The notes below the pieces were generated by a model. It searched no databases. It was not told the origin of the DNA and saw only the letters and a program-made list of their open reading frames with translations. This document shows positions 582 through 14,397 of a stretch of DNA of 64,000 nt, one piece after another (position 1 is the first letter of the stretch; every line of letters starts with the position of its first letter). Both the position numbers and the translations under genes were made by a program. The DNA comes from Variovorax sp. HW608 (GTDB lineage: Bacteria; Pseudomonadota; Gammaproteobacteria; Burkholderiales; Burkholderiaceae_C). Where the stretch lies: positions 5,110,229-5,174,228 of the forward strand of contig NZ_LT607803.1 of the NCBI RefSeq assembly GCF_900090195.1, read 5' to 3'.

Positions 582-595
582 TGAAACCGGTTTCA
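582..595. promoter_or_regulatory. PtxS-type operator (perfect 14-bp palindrome)
   Basis: TGAAACCGGTTTCA is a perfect palindrome with the central CG typical of LacI-family operators. It matches the operator reported for Pseudomonas PtxS, as I recall it. It sits immediately upstream of a likely -10 box, in front of an operon whose last gene encodes a PtxS-like repressor. Confidence 0.85.
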
Positions 596-678: not shown

Positions 679-1350
679 GTGAACTACCAATTCCAGTTCG
701 ACGCCGTTTTCGCCGCCTGGCCGCTGCTGCTCAAGGGCACCTGGATCACGATCCAGCTCTCGCTCGTGGCGACGCTGCTCGGGCTGGTGGTGGCCATCTT
801 CTGCGCCTGGGGCAAGGTCTCGGGGCCGAAGTGGCTGCGCTTCGTCGTCAATGCGTACATCGAGGTGATCCGCAATACGCCGTTCCTGGTGCAGCTGTTC
901 TTCTTTTTCTTCGCGCTGCCGGCGGTGGGCCTGCGCTGGTCGCCCTACACGGCCGCGCTGACCGCGATGGTGGTGAACCTCGGCGCCTACGCGGCAGAGA
1001 TCGTGCGCGCGGGCATCGAATCCATTCCGAAGGGCCAGATCGAGGCGGGGCGGGCGCTCAACCTCAAGGGCTGGGAGATCTTCCGCTTCGTCATCATCAA
1101 GCCCGCGCTCAAGGCCATCTACCCGGCGCTCACCAGCCAGTTCATCCTCTTGATGCTGAGCTCGGCGGTGGTGTCGGTGATCTCGGCGGACGACCTCACC
1201 TCGGTCGCGGCCAACCTGCAGTCGCAGACCTTCCGCAGCTTCGAGATCTACATCGTGGTCGCGGGCATCTACCTCGCGCTGGCGCTGGCGTTCTCGGCGC
1301 TGTTCAAGCTGATCTACCGGCGCACCCTCAACTACCCCGACCGGCGCTGA
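679..1350 (+). CDS. ABC transporter permease, polar amino acid type (predicted 2-ketogluconate importer)
   Basis: This is an inner-membrane permease of the HisM/GltK family, 223 residues from a GTG start, a usual length for the family. Several hydrophobic segments are present. The cytoplasmic EAA loop, which contacts the ATPase, is clear (EIVRAGIESIPKGQIEAGRA). The GTG at 679 is preferred over the upstream codon at 622 because the family N-terminus begins near NYQFQFDAVF; no strong Shine-Dalgarno sequence precedes it. It is the first gene of the operon behind the PtxS-type operator. Family membership would suggest an amino-acid substrate, but the operon's kgu genes argue for 2-ketogluconate. 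The substrate is inference. Confidence 0.9.
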   Translation: MNYQFQFDAVFAAWPLLLKGTWITIQLSLVATLLGLVVAIFCAWGKVSGPKWLRFVVNAYIEVIRNTPFLVQLFFFFFALPAVGLRWSPYTAALTAMVVNLGAYAAEIVRAGIESIPKGQIEAGRALNLKGWEIFRFVIIKPALKAIYPALTSQFILLMLSSAVVSVISADDLTSVAANLQSQTFRSFEIYIVVAGIYLALALAFSALFKLIYRRTLNYPDRR

Positions 1351-1355
1351 ACACC

Positions 1356-2009
1356 ATGCGTACCTTCGGCTATCCCGAATTCCTGTTCATCCTCCAGGCG
1401 GCCCAGTGGACGCTGGCGCTGTCGGCGATCGCCTTCATCGGCGGCGCGGTCCTCGGGCTCGTCATCGCCCTGGCGCGCACCTCGGAGAACAAGACGGCGC
1501 GCGTGCTCGCCACCGGCTTCATCCAGATCTTCCAGGGCACGCCGCTCCTGCTGCAGCTCTTCCTGATCTTCTTCGGCGCACCGGTGCTGGGCTTCGACAT
1601 CAATCCGTGGATCGCGGCCGGCGTGGCGCTCGTCCTCAACAGCGCGGCCTTCCTGGGCGAGATCTGGCGCGGCTGCATCGAGGCGATCCCGCGCGGCCAG
1701 TGGGAGGCGGCGCATGCGCTCAACCTCGGCTACGCCTCGCTCATGCGCGACGTGGTGCTGCCGCAGGCCTTCAAGATCGCGCTGCCGCCGACCGTGGGCT
1801 ACGTGGTGCAGATCATCAAGGGCACCTCGCTGGCGGCCATCATCGGCTTCACCGAAGTCACGCGCGCCGGGCAGATCATCAACAACGCGACCTTCCAGCC
1901 GCTGCATGTGTTCACGACCGTGGCGGCGATCTACTTCGTCATCTGCTGGCCGCTGTCGCTGCTGGCGGCGCGCATGGAGCGCCAGCGCGCTCGTGCGTTG
2001 GCCCGCTGA
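1356..2009 (+). CDS. ABC transporter permease, second subunit
   Basis: This second HisM/GltJ-type permease has 217 residues and starts 5 bases after the first permease stops. It carries its own EAA loop (EIWRGCIEAIPRGQWEAAHA) and several membrane segments. The two permeases would form the heterodimeric membrane channel used by polar amino acid importers. Tight spacing places it in the same operon as the binding protein, ATPase and kgu genes. Confidence 0.9.
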   Translation: MRTFGYPEFLFILQAAQWTLALSAIAFIGGAVLGLVIALARTSENKTARVLATGFIQIFQGTPLLLQLFLIFFGAPVLGFDINPWIAAGVALVLNSAAFLGEIWRGCIEAIPRGQWEAAHALNLGYASLMRDVVLPQAFKIALPPTVGYVVQIIKGTSLAAIIGFTEVTRAGQIINNATFQPLHVFTTVAAIYFVICWPLSLLAARMERQRARALAR

Positions 2010-2053
2010 ATCTCTCTTTCCATCTCACCCGTTCTCAATCAAGGAGACCCGAC

Positions 2054-2851
2054 ATGTTCCGTTCCACCACCCGCCGCGCTGCCATCGCGGCCCTGGGCCT
2101 GGGCGCCGTACTCACCGCCTTCGCACCGCTCGCTTCCGCACAGAGCGTCGCGGACATCAAGAAGAAGGGCGAGATCACCATCGGCATGCTGGTCGACTTC
2201 CCGCCCTACGGCACGACCAATGCGCAGAACCAGCCCGACGGCTACGACGCCGACGTCGCCAAGCTGCTGGCCAAGGAATGGGGCGTGAAGGCCAACATCG
2301 TGCCGGTCACCGGGCCGAACCGCATTCCCTTCTTGCTGACCAACAAGGTCGACCTGCTGGTGGCCTCGCTCGCGATCACGCCCGAGCGCGCGAAGCAGGT
2401 GCAGTTCTCGCAGCCCTACGCGGCCGCGACCATCGTGCTCTACGGCAAGAAGGGCCTGCCGATCAAGAGCGCAGCCGACCTCAAGGGCGTGCGCGTGGGC
2501 GTGGCCCGTGCCAGCACGCAGGACGTGGCCGTGACCAAGGCCGCGCCCGAAGGCACCGAGATCCGCCGCTTCGACGACGACGCCTCGGCCATGCAGGCGC
2601 TGATGTCGGGCCAGGTCGATGCGATCGGCGCCTCGACCACCGTTGCCGCGCAGATCGCCAAGCGCGTGCCGGCCGACACCTTCGAAAACAAGTTCACGCT
2701 GGTGCAGCAGAACATGGGCATCGCGATGCGCCCGGGCCAGGACGACCTGCTGAAGAACGTGAACGAGTTCGTGCAGAAGAACTCGGCCAACGGCGAGCTG
2801 AACAAGCTCTACAACAAGTGGCTCCAGACCGACCTGCCGAAGATGCAGTAA
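2054..2851 (+). CDS. Periplasmic substrate-binding protein of the importer (predicted 2-ketogluconate binder)
   Basis: A precursor of 265 residues with a signal peptide ending near ASAQS and a type II periplasmic-binding fold of the HisJ/GlnH family. A good ribosome site (AAGGAGA, 2041-2047) precedes the ATG. The Arg that grips the ligand alpha-carboxylate is kept (R112 in SLAITPERAK). The Asp that binds the alpha-amino group in amino-acid binders (GlnH motif DAVLHD) is replaced by Ser (S194 in DAIGAST). That change is hard to reconcile with an amino-acid ligand and fits a sugar acid. The ligand is inferred from this residue and from the neighbouring kgu genes. Confidence 0.88.
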   Translation: MFRSTTRRAAIAALGLGAVLTAFAPLASAQSVADIKKKGEITIGMLVDFPPYGTTNAQNQPDGYDADVAKLLAKEWGVKANIVPVTGPNRIPFLLTNKVDLLVASLAITPERAKQVQFSQPYAAATIVLYGKKGLPIKSAADLKGVRVGVARASTQDVAVTKAAPEGTEIRRFDDDASAMQALMSGQVDAIGASTTVAAQIAKRVPADTFENKFTLVQQNMGIAMRPGQDDLLKNVNEFVQKNSANGELNKLYNKWLQTDLPKMQ

Positions 2852-2878
2852 GCGGTCAAGTCAACGCAGGGAACATCC

Positions 2879-3652
2879 ATGACCGACGCAGTCGCGACCC
2901 ACGCGGGCGCGGACACCATCATCCGGCTCGAAGCGGTGAACAAGTGGTACGGCAGCTTCCAGGTGCTGACCGACATCGAGCTCTCGGTGCGCACCGGCGA
3001 ACGCATCGTGATCTGCGGCCCCTCGGGCTCGGGCAAGTCGACGCTGATCCGCTGCATCAACCGCCTGGAGACGGTGCAGAAGGGCCGCATCGTGGTCGAC
3101 GGCATCGAGCTCACGGCAGGCGGCAAGAACGTCGATGCGGTGCGCGCCGAGGTCGGCATGGTGTTCCAGCAGTTCAACCTGTTCCCGCACCTCACCATCC
3201 TGCAGAACTGCACGCTGGCGCCGATGCGCTCGCGCGGCATGTCGAAGGAGCAGGCGGAAGAGGTCGCGATGAAGTACCTCACCCGCGTGCGCATTCCCGA
3301 CCAGGCGCACAAGTACCCGAGCCAGCTCTCCGGCGGCCAGCAGCAGCGCGTGGCGATCGCGCGGGCGCTGTGCATGTCGCCCAAGATCATGCTGTTCGAC
3401 GAGCCCACTTCCGCGCTCGATCCGGAGATGGTCAAGGAAGTGCTCGACACCATGATCGGCCTCGCCGAGGACGGCATGACCATGCTGTGCGTGACGCACG
3501 AGATGGGCTTCGCGCGCAGCGTGGCCGATCGCGTGATCTTCATGGCCGACGGCAAGATCATCGAGCAGGGTGCGCCGAGCGAATTCTTCGGCAATCCGAA
3601 GCACGAGAAGACGCGCCAGTTCCTGGGCCAGATCCTGAGTTCGCATCACTGA
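2879..3652 (+). CDS. ABC transporter ATP-binding subunit
   Basis: The cytoplasmic ATPase of the importer, 257 residues, typical of GlnQ/HisP. Walker A is GPSGSGKST, the signature is LSGGQQQR, Walker B is [12 protein letters not shown], and the switch His lies in CVTHEMGFA. Its stop overlaps the start of kguE (TGATG), so the importer and the catabolic genes should be translated from one transcript. This overlap is the strongest local evidence that the importer serves the kgu pathway. Confidence 0.93.
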
Positions 3653-4401
3653 TGGCCACGCCGGTCCTGATCTCTCTCTCATCCTTCGGCGCCGCCGAGA
3701 TCGGCCGCCACGGGCAGCTCTGGTGCGCGCAGCTTGCGAGGGCCGCGGGTGCCGACAGCGTCGAAGTGCGCGGCGAGTTGCTGCGCGACCCCGAAGCCGA
3801 ACTGCCGGCGCTGGCCGGCCTCGCAGCGGTCTATTCGAGCCCTGAAGGCCTCTTCGCGCAGGGCGGCGATCTCGACGAAGCCGCGCTCGGTCGCGGCATT
3901 GCGGCAGCGACCACGCTGGGCGCCGCACGGCTCAAGATGGCGATCGGCGACTTCGGCCCCTCGTCGCACGGCGCGCTGAATAGCCTCAAGTCCAGCCTGG
4001 CCGCAACCTCCATCGAGCTCGTCATCGAGAACGACCAGACGGTTTCAGCCGGCACGCTGCCCGCGTTGCAGGCCTTCTTCGATGCCGCCGACCGCGCCGG
4101 CCTCGACCTCGGCATGACCTTCGACATGGGCAACTGGCACTGGCTCGGCGAATGCCCGTTGCAGGCCGCGCAGGCACTGGGCCGGCGCGTGCGCTACGTG
4201 CATTGCAAGGGCGTGCAGCGCCTGCCCGCCAAGTGGATCGCGGTGCCGCTCGCCGATTCGATCGCGCCGTGGCGCTCGGTGCTGCGCGCGTTGCCCGCCG
4301 ACGTGCCGCGCGCCATCGAATACCCGCTGGTCGGCGACGATCTGCCCGCTGTCACGCGCGACCAGGTCGCGCATATCCGATCACTGCGAACCACCCCATG
4401 A
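3652..4401 (+). CDS. kguE: KguE-like TIM-barrel epimerase/isomerase
   Basis: A 249-residue protein of the xylose-isomerase-like TIM-barrel superfamily. Likely metal or active-site residues occur in ELVIENDQ, TFDMGNWHW, YVHCKGV and AIEYPLVG, spaced as in sugar-phosphate isomerases/epimerases. In Pseudomonas an equivalent gene of unclear role, kguE, lies with kguK, kguT and kguD. Here it overlaps both neighbours, the ATPase upstream and kguK downstream (ATGA). The assignment rests on fold and position. The exact reaction is unknown. Confidence 0.75.
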   Translation: MATPVLISLSSFGAAEIGRHGQLWCAQLARAAGADSVEVRGELLRDPEAELPALAGLAAVYSSPEGLFAQGGDLDEAALGRGIAAATTLGAARLKMAIGDFGPSSHGALNSLKSSLAATSIELVIENDQTVSAGTLPALQAFFDAADRAGLDLGMTFDMGNWHWLGECPLQAAQALGRRVRYVHCKGVQRLPAKWIAVPLADSIAPWRSVLRALPADVPRAIEYPLVGDDLPAVTRDQVAHIRSLRTTP

Positions 4402-5351
4402 CTTCATCATCTGCCTTCGATGTCGCGCTGTTCGGCGAGGCCATGCTGCTGCTGGTCGCCGACCAGCCGGGCCCGATCGAGAACGCCACCGCCTTCCACA
4501 AGCGCACCGCCGGTGCCGAAACCAACGTGGCCATCGGCCTCTCGCGCCTCGGCCTGAAGGTCGGCTGGGCGAGCCGGCTCGGCACCGATTCGATGGGGCG
4601 CGCGCTGCTCGCCACCATGAAGAGCGAGGGCATCGACTGTTCGCACGTCGTCTGCGACCCGACGCAGCGTACCGGCATGCAGTTCAAGGGCCGCGTGACC
4701 GATGGCAGCGATCCGCCGGTCGAATCCCACCGCAAGGGTTCGGCCGCGAGCTACATGGGCCCGGCCGATGTGGACGAAGAGTGGCTGCGCTCGGCGCGCC
4801 ATCTGCACGCCACCGGCGTGTTCGCCGCCATCTCCGACACCAGCCTGCAGGCCGCGATCAAGTCGATGGAGGTGATGCGCGCCGCCGGCCGCACCATCTC
4901 CTTCGACCCCAACCTGCGTCCGACGCTCTGGTCCTCGCCCGAGACGATGCGGCACTGGATCAACGAACTCGCCGCGCGCGCCGACTGGGTGCTGCCCGGC
5001 GTCGAGGAAGGCCTCATCCTCACCGGCAACGACACCCCCGAAGGCATCGCGCGCTTCTACCGCGCGCGCGGCGCGAAGCTGGTGGTCGTCAAGCTCGGTG
5101 CGAAGGGGGCCTACTACGACAGCGATGTCGCGGGCACCGGCACCATCGAAGGCTTCCCGGTCAAGGAGGTGATCGACACCGTCGGGGCCGGCGACGGCTT
5201 CGCGGCCGGCGTGGTCAGCGCCTTGCTCGAAGGCAAGCCGGTGCCTCAAGCCGTGCGCCGTGGCGCATGGATCGGCGCGCGCGCGGTGCAGGTGCTCGGC
5301 GATACCGAGGGCCTGCCGACGCGCGCCCAACTCGACGAGGCCCGCCTGTGA
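4398..5351 (+). CDS. kguK: 2-ketogluconate kinase, PfkB family
   Basis: A cytoplasmic sugar kinase of 317 residues, expected to phosphorylate 2-ketogluconate to 2-keto-6-phosphogluconate. The N-terminal PfkB substrate region is visible (GEAMLLLVAD, then AGAETNVAIGLSRLG). The C-terminal signature DTVGAGDGFAAG holds the catalytic Asp. 2-keto-3-deoxygluconate kinases are close relatives and cannot be excluded from sequence alone, but the partners kguE, kguD and ptxS favour 2-ketogluconate. Its start overlaps kguE and its stop overlaps the GTG of kguD. Confidence 0.8.
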   Translation: MTSSSAFDVALFGEAMLLLVADQPGPIENATAFHKRTAGAETNVAIGLSRLGLKVGWASRLGTDSMGRALLATMKSEGIDCSHVVCDPTQRTGMQFKGRVTDGSDPPVESHRKGSAASYMGPADVDEEWLRSARHLHATGVFAAISDTSLQAAIKSMEVMRAAGRTISFDPNLRPTLWSSPETMRHWINELAARADWVLPGVEEGLILTGNDTPEGIARFYRARGAKLVVVKLGAKGAYYDSDVAGTGTIEGFPVKEVIDTVGAGDGFAAGVVSALLEGKPVPQAVRRGAWIGARAVQVLGDTEGLPTRAQLDEARL

Positions 5352-6334
5352 CACGCAAGAACATCCTCGTCTTCCGTGAGTTGCCGGGTGACCAGCTCGC
5401 GCGGCTGAAGGCCGAACATGAGGTCACGGTCGCCAACCCGCGCATCGATGCGCAACAGGCGGCCTTCGATGCCGCGCTGCCGCTCGCGCACGGGCTGATC
5501 GGTTCCAGCTTTCCGATCGACGACGCGCTGCTCGCGCGCGCGCCGCAGCTCCAGGTGGTCTCCAGCGTGTCGGTCGGCGTCGACAACTACGCGCTGGCGG
5601 CGCTGCATGCGCGCGGCATCCTGCTGTGCCACACGCCGGGCGTGCTCGACGAGACGGTGGCCGACACGGTCTTTGCGCTCTTGATGGCGACCAGCCGCCG
5701 GGTGGTCGAGCTCTCGAACCTCGTGCGCGAGGGCAAATGGACCCAGAACATTGGCGAAGACCTGTTCGGCTTCGATGTGCACGGCAAGACGCTGGGGCTG
5801 CTGGGCTTCGGCCGCATCGGGCAGGCGATTGCGCGCCGCGCCTTGCTCGGCTTCGGCATGCCGGTGCTCTATCACACGCGCCGGCCGGTGGATCTCGCCG
5901 CGCAGGCGCCCGAGCTGCAGGGACGCGCGCTGTACACGCCGCGGGATGAACTTCTAGTGCGCGCCGACTTCGTGGTCGCGATGCTGCCGCTGTCGGACAG
6001 CACGCGCGGCATGATCGACGCCAGCGTGTTCGATGCGATGAAGCCCGGCGCGATCTTCATCAACGGCGGACGCGGCGCCACGGTGCGCGAGGACGCCCTG
6101 CTCGCCGCGCTCGACAGCGGCCGGCTGCGCGCCGCCGGCCTCGACGTGTTCGCCACCGAACCCTTGCCCAAGGAATCCCCGCTCTGCACCCATCCGCGCG
6201 TGACGCCGCTGCCGCACATCGGCTCGGCCACGCACGAGACCCGCCATGCGATGGCGGAAATGGCGACCACGAACCTGCTGCGTGCGCTCGGAGGCGAGCG
6301 TCCGCTGGCGGTCTACGACACGGCCGCCGCTTGA
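5348..6334 (+). CDS. kguD: 2-ketogluconate-6-phosphate reductase, D-2-hydroxyacid dehydrogenase family
   Basis: An NAD(P)-dependent reductase of 328 residues from a GTG that overlaps the kguK stop. The Rossmann motif is GLLGFGRIGQA. The family's catalytic Arg (INGGRGAT), Glu (FATEPLP) and His (LPHIGSATH) are all present. It should reduce 2-keto-6-phosphogluconate to 6-phosphogluconate, feeding the Entner-Doudoroff and pentose phosphate routes. Glyoxylate/hydroxypyruvate reductases (GhrB) are close relatives; the operon decides the call. Confidence 0.8.
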   Translation: MTRKNILVFRELPGDQLARLKAEHEVTVANPRIDAQQAAFDAALPLAHGLIGSSFPIDDALLARAPQLQVVSSVSVGVDNYALAALHARGILLCHTPGVLDETVADTVFALLMATSRRVVELSNLVREGKWTQNIGEDLFGFDVHGKTLGLLGFGRIGQAIARRALLGFGMPVLYHTRRPVDLAAQAPELQGRALYTPRDELLVRADFVVAMLPLSDSTRGMIDASVFDAMKPGAIFINGGRGATVREDALLAALDSGRLRAAGLDVFATEPLPKESPLCTHPRVTPLPHIGSATHETRHAMAEMATTNLLRALGGERPLAVYDTAAA

Positions 6335-6348
6335 ACGCGAAGACGCCC

Positions 6349-7374
6349 ATGCAGCGCCCGGCCCGCGCGACCATCGCCGACGTCGCCAGGGCGGCGGGCG
6401 TGTCCAAGGCCACCGTCTCGCGCTTTCTCAATCACCGTGAGCGGCTGCTGAGCCCGGACATCGCGGCGCGCGTCGAAGCCGCGATCGCCCAGCTCGACTA
6501 CAGCCCGAGCCCGATGGCGCAAGCGCTGAGCCATGGCCGCTCGCGCCTGATCGGCCTGATCGTGGCCGACATCACCAATCCTTATTCGGTGGCCGTGCTG
6601 CGCGGCGCGGAAAAGGCCTGCCAGGACGCCGGCTACCTCGTGATGCTGTTCAACCTCGGCAACGACATCGACCGCGAGCGCGAGGCCATCGATGCGCTCG
6701 CCGGCTACCAGGTGGACGGCTTCATCCTCAACACGCTCGGCCGGGGCGTGGGGCTCGTCGATGCCGAGGCGCTGCATGGCAAGCCGGCGGTGCTGGTGGA
6801 CCGCCACCATGCCGGCATGCACACCGATTTCGTTTCGCTCGACAACCCGCTTGCGATGAAGGCGGCCTGCAGCCATCTGGTCGAAAGCGGCTTCCGCGAG
6901 CTGCTCTACATCACCGAACCGCTCAAGGGCGTGAGCTCGCGGCGCGAACGGGCGAGCGCCTTCGACGCCTGCATGACGGCGCACGAAGCGCGCGTGAAAG
7001 GCGAGGTGTTCGAGTGCACGGGCGAGGACAGCGACAGCCTCGATGCCGCCTTGCGCGCGCTGCAAAAGCGCGCCAGGCGCGGACGCCGCGCCGCGGTGCT
7101 CGCCGGCAACGCGGTCGTGACGCTGCGCGTGGCCAGCGCGATGGCGCGGCTGGGTTTGCGCTTCGGCGCCGACATCGGCTTCGTGGGCTTCGACGATCCG
7201 GAGTGGGCGCCGCTGATCGGCCCCGGTCTCAGCGCGATTGCGCAGCCTACCGACGCGATCGGCCGCACTGCGGCGACCTGCCTGATCGAGCGCCTTCAGG
7301 GCCTCGAAGGGCCGCCGCGGCAGCTGCTGCTGCCCGGCGAGCTGATCGTCCGGGGATCGTCAGGCCCGGCCTGA
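6349..7374 (+). CDS. ptxS: PtxS-like LacI-family repressor of 2-ketogluconate use
   Basis: A LacI-family regulator of 341 residues. The helix-turn-helix and hinge are at the N-terminus (TIADVARAAGVSKATVSRFL, then YSPSPMAQAL). A periplasmic-binding-like effector domain follows. The ATG at 6349 gives a standard N-terminus; a TTG at 6331, overlapping the kguD stop, is an alternative. As the last gene behind the TGAAACCGGTTTCA operator, it would repress its own operon until 2-ketogluconate or a derivative binds. Its last 15 bases overlap the convergent cyclase gene. Confidence 0.83.
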   Translation: MQRPARATIADVARAAGVSKATVSRFLNHRERLLSPDIAARVEAAIAQLDYSPSPMAQALSHGRSRLIGLIVADITNPYSVAVLRGAEKACQDAGYLVMLFNLGNDIDREREAIDALAGYQVDGFILNTLGRGVGLVDAEALHGKPAVLVDRHHAGMHTDFVSLDNPLAMKAACSHLVESGFRELLYITEPLKGVSSRRERASAFDACMTAHEARVKGEVFECTGEDSDSLDAALRALQKRARRGRRAAVLAGNAVVTLRVASAMARLGLRFGADIGFVGFDDPEWAPLIGPGLSAIAQPTDAIGRTAATCLIERLQGLEGPPRQLLLPGELIVRGSSGPA

Positions 7375-8203: not shown

Positions 8204-8593
8204 TCATGCGGTGCGCCGCGCGGTCACTTCGATCTCGACCTTGGCGCCTTCCACGGCGAGCGGGCTGCACACGGTGGTGTTGGCGGGGCGATGGGCGCCG
8301 AGGCGTCGCCGCAGCACCTGGCTGACCGCGATCACGTCGTTGCGGTCGGGCACGTAGACCCGCACGCGCACCACGTCGGCGAGGCCGGATCCGGCCTGTG
8401 CCAGTGCGCGCTCGATGGTGTCGAGCGCAAGTTCACTCTGGCCTTCGGCGGTGTCGGGAAAGGCGCCGGACTTGAAGTCCTGGCCGATCGTGCCGGAGAC
8501 GAAGACCCATTCGCCATCGATCACCGCGCGCGAATAGCCCGCCAGTTCTTCCCAGCGCGAGCCGCTCTGGATGAATTGCCGCGCTGCGCTCAT
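8204..8593 (-). CDS. RidA-family protein
   Basis: A 129-residue YjgF/YER057c/UK114-type protein; members of this family often deaminate reactive enamines or imines. The strand order VFVSGTIGQD, then a middle helix with SELALDTIERALAQAG, then VRVRVYVPDRND is typical. The usual Arg of the RidA pocket is not obvious, because the C-terminal region reads NTTVCSPLAVEGAKVEIEV. It is therefore likely one of the divergent pathway-linked subfamilies. Its ATG overlaps the stop of the Bug fragment upstream (ATGA), which indicates former translational coupling. Confidence 0.8.
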   Translation of the reverse strand: MSAARQFIQSGSRWEELAGYSRAVIDGEWVFVSGTIGQDFKSGAFPDTAEGQSELALDTIERALAQAGSGLADVVRVRVYVPDRNDVIAVSQVLRRRLGAHRPANTTVCSPLAVEGAKVEIEVTARRTA

Positions 8594-8948
8594 TGCGCCT
8601 TGAAGCCCGATTCGCGGATGACCTTGCTCCAGGTGGCGTTCGTGTCCACCACCCATTGCCCGACTTCCTTGCCCGAGGCCGGCGTCACTTCGTTGCCCAT
8701 CTTGGCCAGGCGCTCCTGCACGTCCGGTTGCGCGAGCACGGTCTTCACCGCGCGCTCGAAAGGCTCGATGAAATCCGAGGACACGCCTTTCGGGCCGAAG
8801 AATGCGAGCCACGGGTTCTTGTCGATGCCGTTGAAGCCGAGCTCGTGGAAAGTCGGGATCTCCGGCGCGGTCTTGCTGCGCTCCTCGCCGGAACTCGCGA
8901 GGATGCGCACCTTGCCCGCGCGGTGGTATTCGATCAGCTCGGTCATCG
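8590..8948 (-). pseudogene. C-terminal fragment of a Bug/TctC-type solute-binding protein
   Basis: About 118 codons encode the last third of a tripartite-tricarboxylate-transporter binding protein (IEYHRAGKVRILASSG, PTFHELGFNGIDKNPWLAFF, ATWSKVIRESGFK). The signal peptide and first two thirds are missing. Upstream of roughly 8948 the sequence becomes an aminotransferase in another frame, so this is the 3' side of a deletion junction. An ATG just after the junction could allow translation, but the product would lack a ligand pocket and export signal. Confidence 0.75.
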
Positions 8949-9433
8949 TCGTAGAAGCTGGCATGCGACACCGACACCAGCGCCGTATGCCCATCGATCG
9001 CGCGCACCAGTTTGTCCGTGGTGTCGCTCGCACCGGGCTGCGCCTGCACGAAGCGCACCTGCGCGCCGCGCGGCCGCTGCGCGAGCCACACATGGCAGAT
9101 CGACGGAAAGTCCAGGCTGCCGGTCACGATGCCCGGCCGCTCGCCGCCGAAGCGCAGCGCGGACGCAATGCTCGATGCCGCATCCGACACGCTGCCGAGC
9201 ACCGCGATGTCATTCGCGTCGGCGTGGACCATGCGGGCGAACTCGGCGCGTGCGAGCGCCACCTGCTCCATCCAGTAGCCCCAGTCGGCACCGCGCCGTG
9301 TCCATACGTCGAGGTAGTCGCCGATCGCGCGCTTGACCGGCAGACTGAGCGCGCTCTGCGAGCAACTGGACAACTGGATGGTGTTCTCCAGGATGGGGAA
9401 GAGCTTTCGCAACGAAGAGAATGGATGGGTCAT
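8949..9433 (-). pseudogene. N-terminal fragment of a class V-fold aminotransferase
   Basis: About 161 codons from an ATG at 9433 match the start of a PLP-dependent class V enzyme (FPILENTIQLSSCSQSALS, VLGSVSDAASSIASALRFGG, ALVSVSHASFYDD). The catalytic Lys, which lies further on in this family, is absent because the frame runs into the Bug fragment near 8949. The same frame stays open through the Bug region and joins RidA in frame, giving one chimeric 409-codon frame from 9433 to 8204. The boundary is approximate to a few bases. Confidence 0.72.
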
Positions 9434-12594: not shown

Positions 12595-13395
12595 TCACGC
12601 CTCGAAGGCGATCGCGCTGTACCCGACGACGCGATCGAGGTCGCCCGCGGTGTCGCCGGAATTGCGCAGATCGAGCAGGCGCGGCTTCAGGCCATGGTGA
12701 CCTGCAGCCAGCAAGGCGCCGTTGATCGCCTCCGATCCACAGGCCTCGTGCGGCGTGAGTCCGGCATCCAGGTGCAGGATGCGCTGCACGGTCGCCTTGT
12801 CGGCGAGCCTGGCCTTCGCATAGGGCAGGTAGTGCGAGAGGTCCGAGCTGATGACGATCAGCGTTTCGTCGCCGCCCCAGAGGCGTTCGAGCACCTCGGC
12901 GACCGCCGCGCCGCCGGTGTCGCCGACGACCAGCGGCACCAGTGTGAATTCGCCGAGCGCCGCCTGCAGGAAGGGCAGGTGCACCTCGATGGAATGCTCC
13001 TGGGCATGCGCCCGGTCGCTGCGGATCACCTGCGGCAGGTCGGCGATGCGGTCGAGCATCTCGCGATCGATGGCAACGCGGCCGAGCGGCGTCTGGAAGG
13101 CATCCGCTTGCGGTGCGGCGAGGCCGTTCACCCACACGCGATGTGCAGGCCCCAGCAGCACCACGCGGCGGATCGGCGGTGCGTCCGGATGCCGCAGCAG
13201 GGCATAGGCGCTCGCGGCAATGGGCCCGGAATAGGCGTAGCCGGCGTGCGGCGCGATCAGCAGCTTGGGCCGCGGATGCGCTTGCACGTCCTCGTCGGCG
13301 CCATCACGCAGAAAGCCCTCGACCTGTTCCCGCAACTCGCGCGGGGCGGACGGATAGAACAGGCCGCACACGGCGGCATGGCGCACGGCAGGCAT
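12595..13395 (-). CDS. amrB: AmmeMemoRadiSam system protein B (Memo family)
   Basis: A 266-residue Memo-family protein related to extradiol-dioxygenase folds. Conserved His residues occur in IAPHAGYAYSG, LGPAH and EHSIEVHLPFLQ, and a Cys in HEACGSEAING, matching the metal-site pattern described for human MEMO1. It sits directly upstream of the radical SAM partner. The third usual partner, an AMMECR1-domain protein, is not found in this window as a separate gene or fusion. Confidence 0.88.
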   Translation of the reverse strand: MPAVRHAAVCGLFYPSAPRELREQVEGFLRDGADEDVQAHPRPKLLIAPHAGYAYSGPIAASAYALLRHPDAPPIRRVVLLGPAHRVWVNGLAAPQADAFQTPLGRVAIDREMLDRIADLPQVIRSDRAHAQEHSIEVHLPFLQAALGEFTLVPLVVGDTGGAAVAEVLERLWGGDETLIVISSDLSHYLPYAKARLADKATVQRILHLDAGLTPHEACGSEAINGALLAAGHHGLKPRLLDLRNSGDTAGDLDRVVGYSAIAFEA

Positions 13396-13477
13396 GAAGG
13401 CGGCTCCTGGCGTTGAATTTGAACCCTTCGGATTCGAAAATCAATCCCATCGGCGATGTCCTCACCCGGAGCGTGCC

Positions 13478-13684
13478 ATGAACGAAGAGAGCTTCAACAT
13501 CAGCATCCGCAAGTTCCTCAAGATGGTCGGCGTGAGCTCGCAGCGCGAGATCGAGCAGGCCGTCGCCAAGGCGCTGCAGGCCGGATCGATCGCCGGCAAT
13601 GCCGCGCTGCCGGCCAGGATGACGCTCGAGATCCCCGGCGTCCAGCTCAAGGTCGGGTTCGACGGCGAGATCCATCTGGATTGA
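13478..13684 (+). CDS. DUF6494 family small protein
   Basis: A 68-residue protein with an N-terminal helical part (FNISIRKFLKMVGVSSQREI) and a C-terminal beta part (PGVQLKVGFDGEIHLD). I recognise the family as DUF6494, function unknown. It is divergent from the Memo/radical SAM pair across about 80 bases, so the two could share regulation. No signal peptide is visible. Confidence 0.75.
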   Translation: MNEESFNISIRKFLKMVGVSSQREIEQAVAKALQAGSIAGNAALPARMTLEIPGVQLKVGFDGEIHLD

Positions 13685-13689
13685 GCTTC

Positions 13690-13923
13690 CCGGCGGGCTG
13701 GCGGTGCCGGTTCTCGGGTAACCGTTCCAGTGCGCGCATGACGGCGGCGCCCATCTTTGGTGCAACGCTCAGGCCGCAGCAGGCGCGCACCGCGCCTTCC
13801 TCCAGGCGCTTGCCCAGGCCGCACGCCGTAGCCGGCGATCACGCCTTCGCGCGCGAGCCGCGCGGCCGATTCGCGCGCGTTGGCTTGCAGCAGGCTCAGC
13901 AGGTGCCGGTCGGTGTCGTCCAA
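13690..13923 (-). pseudogene. Lrp/AsnC-type regulator, internally deleted and frameshifted
   Basis: The start reads like an Lrp/AsnC N-terminus (DDTDRHLLSLLQANARESAA) but jumps straight to REGVIAGYGVR, so the recognition part of the helix-turn-helix is missing. An extra base near the following GLGK-type segment shifts the frame. The correct continuation (EEGAVRACCGLSVAPKMGAA) is found in another frame and then breaks off. Three independent lesions make this a clear relic. It lies just upstream of the RidA-transglutaminase genes' 3' end. Confidence 0.7.
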
Positions 13924-13938
13924 CGCCTTGTCAACGCC

Positions 13939-14397
13939 TCACTCGACTTCGGCGATCAGCTCGATCTCGACGCAGGCGCCGAACGGAATCTGGGCCACGC
14001 CGAAGGCGCTGCGCGCATGCGCGCCCTTTTCGGGGCCGAACACCTCGGCGAAGAACTCGCTCGCGCCGTTGGTCACGAGGTGCTGTTCGGTGAAGCTGCC
14101 GGTCGAGTTGACGAGGCTCATCACCTTCACGATGCGCTTGACCTTGTCCAGGCTGCCGACGGCCGCGTTGAGCGTGCCCAGCAGGTCGATCGCGATCGCG
14201 CGGGCGGCCTCTTTGCCTTCCTCGGTCGTCATGTTGGCGCCGAGCTGGCCCACCCAGGGCTTGCCGTCCTTCTTGGCGATGTGGCCGGAGAGGAAGACCA
14301 GCTTGCCGGTCTGCACGAAAGGCACGTAGGCGGCGGCGGGCACGGAGACGGGAGGCAGCGTGATGCCGAGGCTCTTGAGTTTGTCCTGGATGCTCAT
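13939..14397 (-). CDS. RidA-family protein (longer subfamily)
   Basis: A 152-residue RidA-like protein, longer than canonical RidA, with the order YVPFVQTGKLVFLSGHIA, a central helix and RSAFGVAQIPFGACVEIELIAEVE. The Arg in ARSAFGVAQIP occupies the usual RidA pocket position, so imine/enamine deaminase activity is plausible. Its ATG overlaps the stop of the transglutaminase gene upstream by four bases, placing it at the end of the transglutaminase/ATP-grasp operon. Confidence 0.85.
   Translation of the reverse strand: MSIQDKLKSLGITLPPVSVPAAAYVPFVQTGKLVFLSGHIAKKDGKPWVGQLGANMTTEEGKEAARAIAIDLLGTLNAAVGSLDKVKRIVKVMSLVNSTGSFTEQHLVTNGASEFFAEVFGPEKGAHARSAFGVAQIPFGACVEIELIAEVE

Follow-up and report, generated by a model that had tools for sequence, protein, structure and literature searches.

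In Pseudomonas, the genes for 2-ketogluconate use are arranged as kguE-kguK-kguT-kguD with ptxS; KguT, a carrier of the major facilitator superfamily (MFS), is encoded between kguK and kguD, and the regulator PtxS has the operator TGAAACCGGTTTCA, with 2-ketogluconate as its effector (PMC5902321). We analysed a stretch of 64,000 nucleotides from Variovorax sp. HW608 (contig NZ_LT607803.1, positions 5,110,229 to 5,174,228), referred to here as the window, in which an operon at positions 679-7374 carries the same kguE, kguK, kguD and ptxS genes and an exact copy of this operator. In place of KguT, a four-gene ATP-binding cassette (ABC) importer of the polar-amino-acid type lies upstream of kguE. 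That the ABC importer replaces KguT, as an earlier reading made from the letters of the DNA (the sequence-only reading) had proposed, is well supported, because the two were never found together in 164 mapped loci (82 with the ABC set, 67 with KguT), no KguT match above 38% identity was among the matches listed for 57 ABC-bearing genomes, and a PtxS operator stands before the ABC genes.

The polar-amino-acid importers GlnHPQ, EhuABCD and ArtPIQMJ, which we take to form family TC 3.A.1.3 (PAAT), are built from an SBP_bac_3 binding protein, two BPD_transp_1 permeases and one ATPase. The Variovorax set has the same parts: a family-3 substrate-binding protein (SBP), two permeases with the HEQRo three-transmembrane (3-TM) domain and one ATPase. 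It differs from those importers in that the NCBIfam equivalog scores listed for its genes all lie below the cut-offs (for the ATPase, among 25 of 190 families listed), and in that the Asp and the Gly-x-Thr of AncQR, an arginine/glutamine binder used as the alignment reference, are changed in its SBP. Agrobacterium SocA and OccJ (PDB 5l9o, 5lom, 6hqh, 5org) share the family-3 fold; SocA binds deoxyfructosyl-glutamine/glucopine, which has a sugar-like part, and OccJ binds octopine, but both ligands still contain an amino acid. A putative Pseudomonas ABC importer for glucosaminate, the 2-amino analogue of 2-ketogluconate (AO353_21710 to 21725, GapMind), would be a close parallel; it was not among the entries listed in a search. 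The kgu loci of Halomonas (L208) and Azohydromonas (L246) have the same ptxS-kguE-kguK-kguD core as the Variovorax operon, but with neither ABC set nor KguT; a DctP-type protein of the tripartite ATP-independent periplasmic (TRAP) class is encoded downstream, in L208 together with two genes that look, by eye, like those of the TRAP membrane proteins.

All eight frames of the operon are open and lie on the + strand, in the order P1-P2-SBP-ATP-kguE-kguK-kguD-ptxS. The permease genes P1 (679..1350, GTG start) and P2 (1356..2009), both of the polar-amino-acid type (PF00528, BPD_transp_1; TIGR01726), are 5 bases apart; the SBP gene (2054..2851; PF00497, SBP_bac_3) follows after 44 bases and the gene for a GlnQ/EhuA-like ABC ATPase (2879..3652; PF00005, ABC_tran; best NCBIfam model GlnQ, below cut-off) after a further 27. 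The ATPase gene and kguE (3652..4401) meet in the sequence TGATG at 3650-3654, and the kguE/kguK, kguK/kguD and kguD/ptxS junctions are 4-base overlaps. The sequence-only reading had described eight overlapping or nearly touching genes with the importer fused to the kgu genes by TGATG, and the frames, strand and junctions agree with that description.

The kguE product is a TIM-barrel protein with a weak AP_endonuc_2 (PF01261) match, scoring 27.1 bits against a Pfam cut-off of 31.1. Its sole PDB match at E values up to 0.01 is 1yx1 (E 1e-42), the PA2260 protein of P. aeruginosa, which is presumably KguE. The 2-ketogluconate kinase gene kguK (4398..5351) encodes a PfkB-family protein with 69% identity to KguK of Cupriavidus necator UYPR2.512 (L202), and kguD (5348..6334, GTG start) encodes a 2-hydroxyacid dehydrogenase (2-Hacid_dh), taken as 2-keto-6-phosphogluconate reductase, whose best PDB match is labelled 'probable 2-ketogluconate reductase'. 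The LacI-type repressor gene ptxS (6331..7374; PF00356, PF13377), also recognised from its position in kgu loci, has a TTG start at the overlap and an ATG further in at 6349. Kinase, dehydrogenase, KguE and PtxS with its operator are thus all present. The Pfam families of the eight operon genes include no MFS carrier KguT, and no deaminase or amino-acid gene.

Of the 164 mapped kguE loci, 64 came from order, genus and family samples and 20 from a phylum sample; the other 80 were named loci, the best 80 of 479. KguE is carried by 94 of the 101 genomes of the window's genus, and 20 of those 94 were taken; the family sample held all 41 genomes outside the genus, of 46 matches, and the order sample gave six matches, one of which (G163, a 53-residue match) was dropped. 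Among the 24 matches of the phylum sample, two (G000, G240) were left unmapped and two (G171, G119) were already included. The window locus stands outside the 164; L114 and L246 are the same DNA and there was no other duplicate pair, leaving 163 distinct loci. A complete ABC set was found upstream of kguE in 82 loci, KguT, taken as 55% identity or more to the L125 protein, in 67, neither in 12 and both in none; in the other three (L091, L111, L186) an ATPase gene alone was seen at a contig end. Counted with KguT were L206, where the extra ATPases reach just 28-30% identity, and L252, where the contig ends 81 bases into KguT. Among the named loci, KguT holders were mostly Enterobacterales, and ABC holders were Herbaspirillum, Cupriavidus, one metagenome-assembled genome (MAG) of Duganella and three Comamonadaceae MAGs. 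The survey of kguT versus ABC genes for which the sequence-only reading had called, run on these samples of genomes, gave a consistent split.

The importers of the kgu loci belong to two groups, recognised by gene order and identity before tree building. Lineage 1 holds 58 SBPs, with the order P1-P2-SBP-ATP, and lineage 2 holds 25, with the order SBP-P1-P2-ATP (L099, L124, Herbaspirillum, Cupriavidus and L193); identity between the lineages is about 39-54%.

The distribution was also followed from the importer side. SBP orthologs with at least 70% identity occurred in 55 of 399 family genomes, 41 of which carry kguE (in G359 and G366 on a different contig from the SBP). All 14 kguE-less genomes were fetched, and in 12 of them kguK directly follows the ATPase gene, which ties the importer mainly to kguK; at most six kguE candidates were scored per genome, so that a kguE elsewhere in the 14 is possible. 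One of the 14 loci (L327) is cut by a contig end. The twelve ABC-kguK operons with no kguE match (L314-L322, L324-L326) are an observation in their own right, and KguE seems to be dispensable in them. Using the L125 KguT as query, the best match in the Variovorax sp. HW608 genome had 35% identity, typical of a large carrier family. The 57 distinct ABC genomes (32 + 25) without a match above 38% among those listed were searched for KguT and not for other carrier families; three KguT genomes used as positive controls gave 74-77%.

The PtxS operator was found as an exact copy of TGAAACCGGTTTCA (sequence from Table 2 of PMC5902321) at 582..595, with no strand assigned, 83 bp before P1. This site, absent from the sequence-only reading, is the single match in the window at up to two mismatches, against a mean of 0.05 in shuffled sequence, and the sole match in the whole genome at up to one mismatch. 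The operator survey covered 162 loci and the 350 bp before the first gene. At up to one mismatch, the operator preceded the first ABC gene in 55 of 57 kguE-bearing lineage-1 loci, and in the remaining two (L080, L081) an exact copy lies farther off, some 780 bp upstream. The same threshold gave 8 of 13 kguE-less lineage-1 loci (two mismatches in 2 more), 7 of 25 lineage-2 loci (two mismatches in 2) and 6 of 67 KguT loci (two mismatches in 45, none in 16). The density of sites at up to one mismatch in these 350-bp stretches was about 108 times that elsewhere in the same loci. An operator in front of P1 places the transporter genes inside the PtxS-controlled unit, provided that PtxS acts as it does in Pseudomonas. 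A sigma-70 scan found no promoter. Among KguT loci, the site before kguE reads TGGAACCGGTTCCA in L264, L266-L271 and L274-L277, and has the exact Pseudomonas form in L260, L262, L263, L265, L272 and L273; no site was found before kguE in L261. TGGAACCGGTTCCA is possibly a clade-specific PtxS site.

In family-3 binding proteins such as GlnBP and HisJ, the structures show an Arg that holds the alpha-carboxylate of the ligand and an Asp that holds its alpha-ammonium. Aligned with AncQR, the window SBP keeps the Arg of the ITPER motif (R112), while the Asp is replaced by Ser (S194) and Gly-x-Thr by Ser-x-Ala (A107). Across the 83 kgu SBPs aligned, window SBP included, R112, R152 and A107 were present in 83/83, and column 194, the Asp column, held Ser in 58, Pro in 25 and Asp in none. 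The same genome encodes 28 further family-3 proteins; 12 of these have Asp at column 194, and 16 have Thr or Ser at the 107 column. R90 was dropped as a pocket mark, being present in 17 of these 28 paralogs. The 50 PDB matches listed for the structure model of the SBP (predicted local distance difference test, pLDDT, 87.7) comprised binders of amino acids or opines and, in a few cases, proteins with no stated ligand. A relative in this fold family is reported to have lost amino-acid binding en route to becoming an enzyme (PMC7683729). One of the paralogs, encoded at 6728956-6729609 of the same genome (C1; L130, L334), also has Ser at the Asp column and adjoins a P1-P2-ATP set; its importer is a candidate for another that carries something other than an amino acid.

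Taken together, these results make it highly probable that the eight genes form a complete unit for 2-ketogluconate catabolism, with a polar-amino-acid-family importer filling the role of KguT. In the periplasm, the SBP would bind external 2-ketogluconate by the carboxylate, using R112, in a pocket without the Asp that would hold an amino-acid ammonium; P1, P2 and the ATPase would import the compound. KguK would then convert it to 2-keto-6-phosphogluconate, and KguD would reduce this to 6-phosphogluconate, which would feed the Entner-Doudoroff route; PtxS would repress the operon at the operator before P1 and be released on binding 2-ketogluconate. From genome context and pocket residues we infer that the ligand is 2-ketogluconate or a close sugar acid, so that sugar-acid transport is very probable for a system at present annotated as an amino-acid transporter. 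The sequence-only reading had regarded 2-ketogluconate as a new substrate class for the family. No description of an ABC importer for 2-ketogluconate was among the papers listed in searches of the open-access literature (subscription journals, GapMind and regulon databases were outside the scope), and to that extent the claim of novelty stands, with the substrate itself the predicted part.

Several observations weigh against this assignment. Asp at column 194 is also lacking in 16 of the 28 paralogs, so its loss is not rare, and the same pocket signature occurs in L328, an importer outside any kgu locus, and partly elsewhere; it can therefore mark a non-amino-acid ligand at most, not 2-ketogluconate alone. 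The operator, at up to two mismatches within 350 bp, was not found before 16 of the 25 lineage-2 ABC sets, 3 of the 13 kguE-less and 2 of the 57 kguE-bearing lineage-1 sets. At one SBP ortholog, L323, kguK is missing from the neighbourhood, which instead contains an altronate/galactarate-dehydratase-family gene, a short-chain dehydrogenase/reductase (SDR) and an FAA hydrolase. The 164 loci are moreover related by descent, and their counts describe a consistent split and not 164 independent tests.

A rival idea is that the importer chiefly carries a related sugar acid (gluconate, 2-keto-gulonate, 2-keto-3-deoxygluconate or a diketogluconate), with 2-ketogluconate a secondary substrate or none. 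The more distant SBPs (40-53% identity, six loci) have other neighbourhoods, which hint at a sugar-acid-carrying branch of the family; the nearest of them, L328, adjoins an SDR and an FAA hydrolase. The best NCBIfam model for the FAA hydrolases of L323 and L328 is 2,4-didehydro-3-deoxy-L-rhamnonate hydrolase (381 and 431 bits, below the cut-off of 500), and these two importers are possibly L-rhamnonate/L-fuconate importers. The 2-ketogluconate kinase of C. necator H16 also takes 2-keto-3-deoxygluconate, 2-ketogulonate and 2-keto-3-deoxygulonate (PMC6651773). Against these points, the importer is linked to kguK, and in most cases to kguD, and substitutes for KguT across the loci surveyed, which leaves a different main ligand unlikely. 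We consider it less likely still that the importer carries an amino acid or an amino sugar acid such as glucosaminate and is merely co-regulated with the kgu genes, 2-ketogluconate entering by another carrier. In favour of this idea, amino acids or opines account for almost all of the closest NCBIfam models and of the ligands named for the closest PDB relatives; against it, Asp is found at the amine column in none of the 83 kgu SBPs, the operon lacks a deaminase or amino-acid gene, and the search for KguT in the 57 genomes, which did not extend to other carrier families, listed no match above 38%. A chance neighbourhood with no functional tie is contradicted by the survey and can practically be dismissed, since the ABC-kguE arrangement recurs in 82 of the 164 mapped loci and in two lineages, with the operator in front in most of lineage 1.

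To address the origin of the two lineages, trees were built from 18 lineage-1 rows (13 kguE loci, four kguE-less loci including L323, and the window), 9 of the 25 lineage-2 rows, six non-kgu rows (seven for the SBP) and five or six paralogs from the window's genome; L336, L340 and L341 of that genome were left out. The approximately unbiased (AU) test rejected lineages 1 and 2 as one clade for the ATPase (p = 3.8e-5), P1 (p = 0.007) and P2 (p = 0.009), but not for the SBP (p = 0.13), which by itself is not decisive on a single origin. Long end branches were flagged in all four trees. In the ATPase tree the non-kgu L328 and L329 fell within lineage 1, without starred support, and in the P1 tree lineage 1 was not one side of a branch. 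The ATPases of the non-kgu loci L328-L331 and L333 have 70-78% identity to the window ATPase, and that of L332 has 54%. A single origin of the kgu SBPs was considered and set aside: a FastTree analysis with only the genome's own paralogs as outgroup joined the lineages, but nearer non-kgu relatives broke the group. Two separate recruitments would be the simpler reading of these trees, and a single SBP origin with exchanged membrane parts is possible. We lean slightly towards independent recruitment of two amino-acid-type ABC importers into Burkholderiales kgu operons, one in Comamonadaceae and one in Herbaspirillum/Cupriavidus, each replacing KguT and each losing the Asp in its own way (Ser versus Pro), a convergent shift from amino acid to keto sugar acid.

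Growth data exist for relatives. All type strains (8/8) of eight new Variovorax species use 2-ketogluconate as a carbon source (PMC12396923), and the SBP of one of them, strain J22R133, has 88% identity to the window SBP. Ralstonia/Cupriavidus are among the 2-ketogluconate users treated in PMC6651773, where uptake is described generally as KGUT and the kinase of C. necator H16 is characterised; the C. necator strain in our survey (L202) has the ABC set. In strain JMP134 the kinase is absent and 2-ketogluconate is not used (PMC2842291). In the genome of the window, a search for the small subunit of gluconate 2-dehydrogenase (PF13618) gave no match, and the matches to a Gcd-type pyrroloquinoline quinone (PQQ) dehydrogenase were below cut-off only. 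PF13618 was present in 19 of 44 ABC, 20 of 28 KguT and 2 of 8 'neither' genomes (80 genomes, L246 left out), including all seven Herbaspirillum tested, which are ABC holders. The idea that the ABC importer serves scavenging and KguT the uptake of self-made 2-ketogluconate was not adopted, as there was a leaning at most, confounded by kinship.

Some surveyed loci depart from both arrangements. Two KguT-type loci (L207, L264) have no kguK match and two others (L278, L279) have kguE and kguD only; these may be variant 2-ketogluconate routes. The kgu core occurs with neither KguT nor ABC set in Halomonas/Vreelandella (L208, L217, L259), and as ptxS-kguE-kguK-kguD in L114 (= L246, Azohydromonas aeria), L116, L117 and L118. 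In L208 a LacI-like regulator and a TRAP system lie after the core, with DctP at 13001-14002 (Pfam) and a small and a large membrane gene (by eye), possibly a third transport solution for 2-ketogluconate; in L116 and L246 the core is followed by a shikimate-dehydrogenase-like gene and a DctP-type binding protein (by eye). Next to the Variovorax operon, the minus-strand gene for a cyclase-family protein (PF04199; 7360-8163) runs towards ptxS and shares 15 bases with its 3' end. Beyond it, a single minus-strand frame at 8204-9433 comprises part of a class-V aminotransferase and a RidA-like domain, and an overlapping frame at 8590-9093 corresponds to a TctC-type binding protein reduced to its C-terminal part; the frames at 8204-9433 look like gene remnants left after a deletion.

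Most close SBP relatives recorded with an organism name come from Variovorax, and their labels are generic transporter names, 'polar amino acid transport system' or 'transporter substrate-binding domain-containing protein'. If the assignment is correct, many proteins under these labels would be sugar-acid importers, and both the annotation and the metabolic models of bacteria common in soil and on roots would be corrected accordingly. The kgu operons would also offer a natural experiment in transporter replacement, with an MFS carrier, an ABC importer and perhaps a TRAP system serving one pathway, and a simple pocket change, the loss of one Asp, as an amino-acid binder becomes a keto-acid binder.

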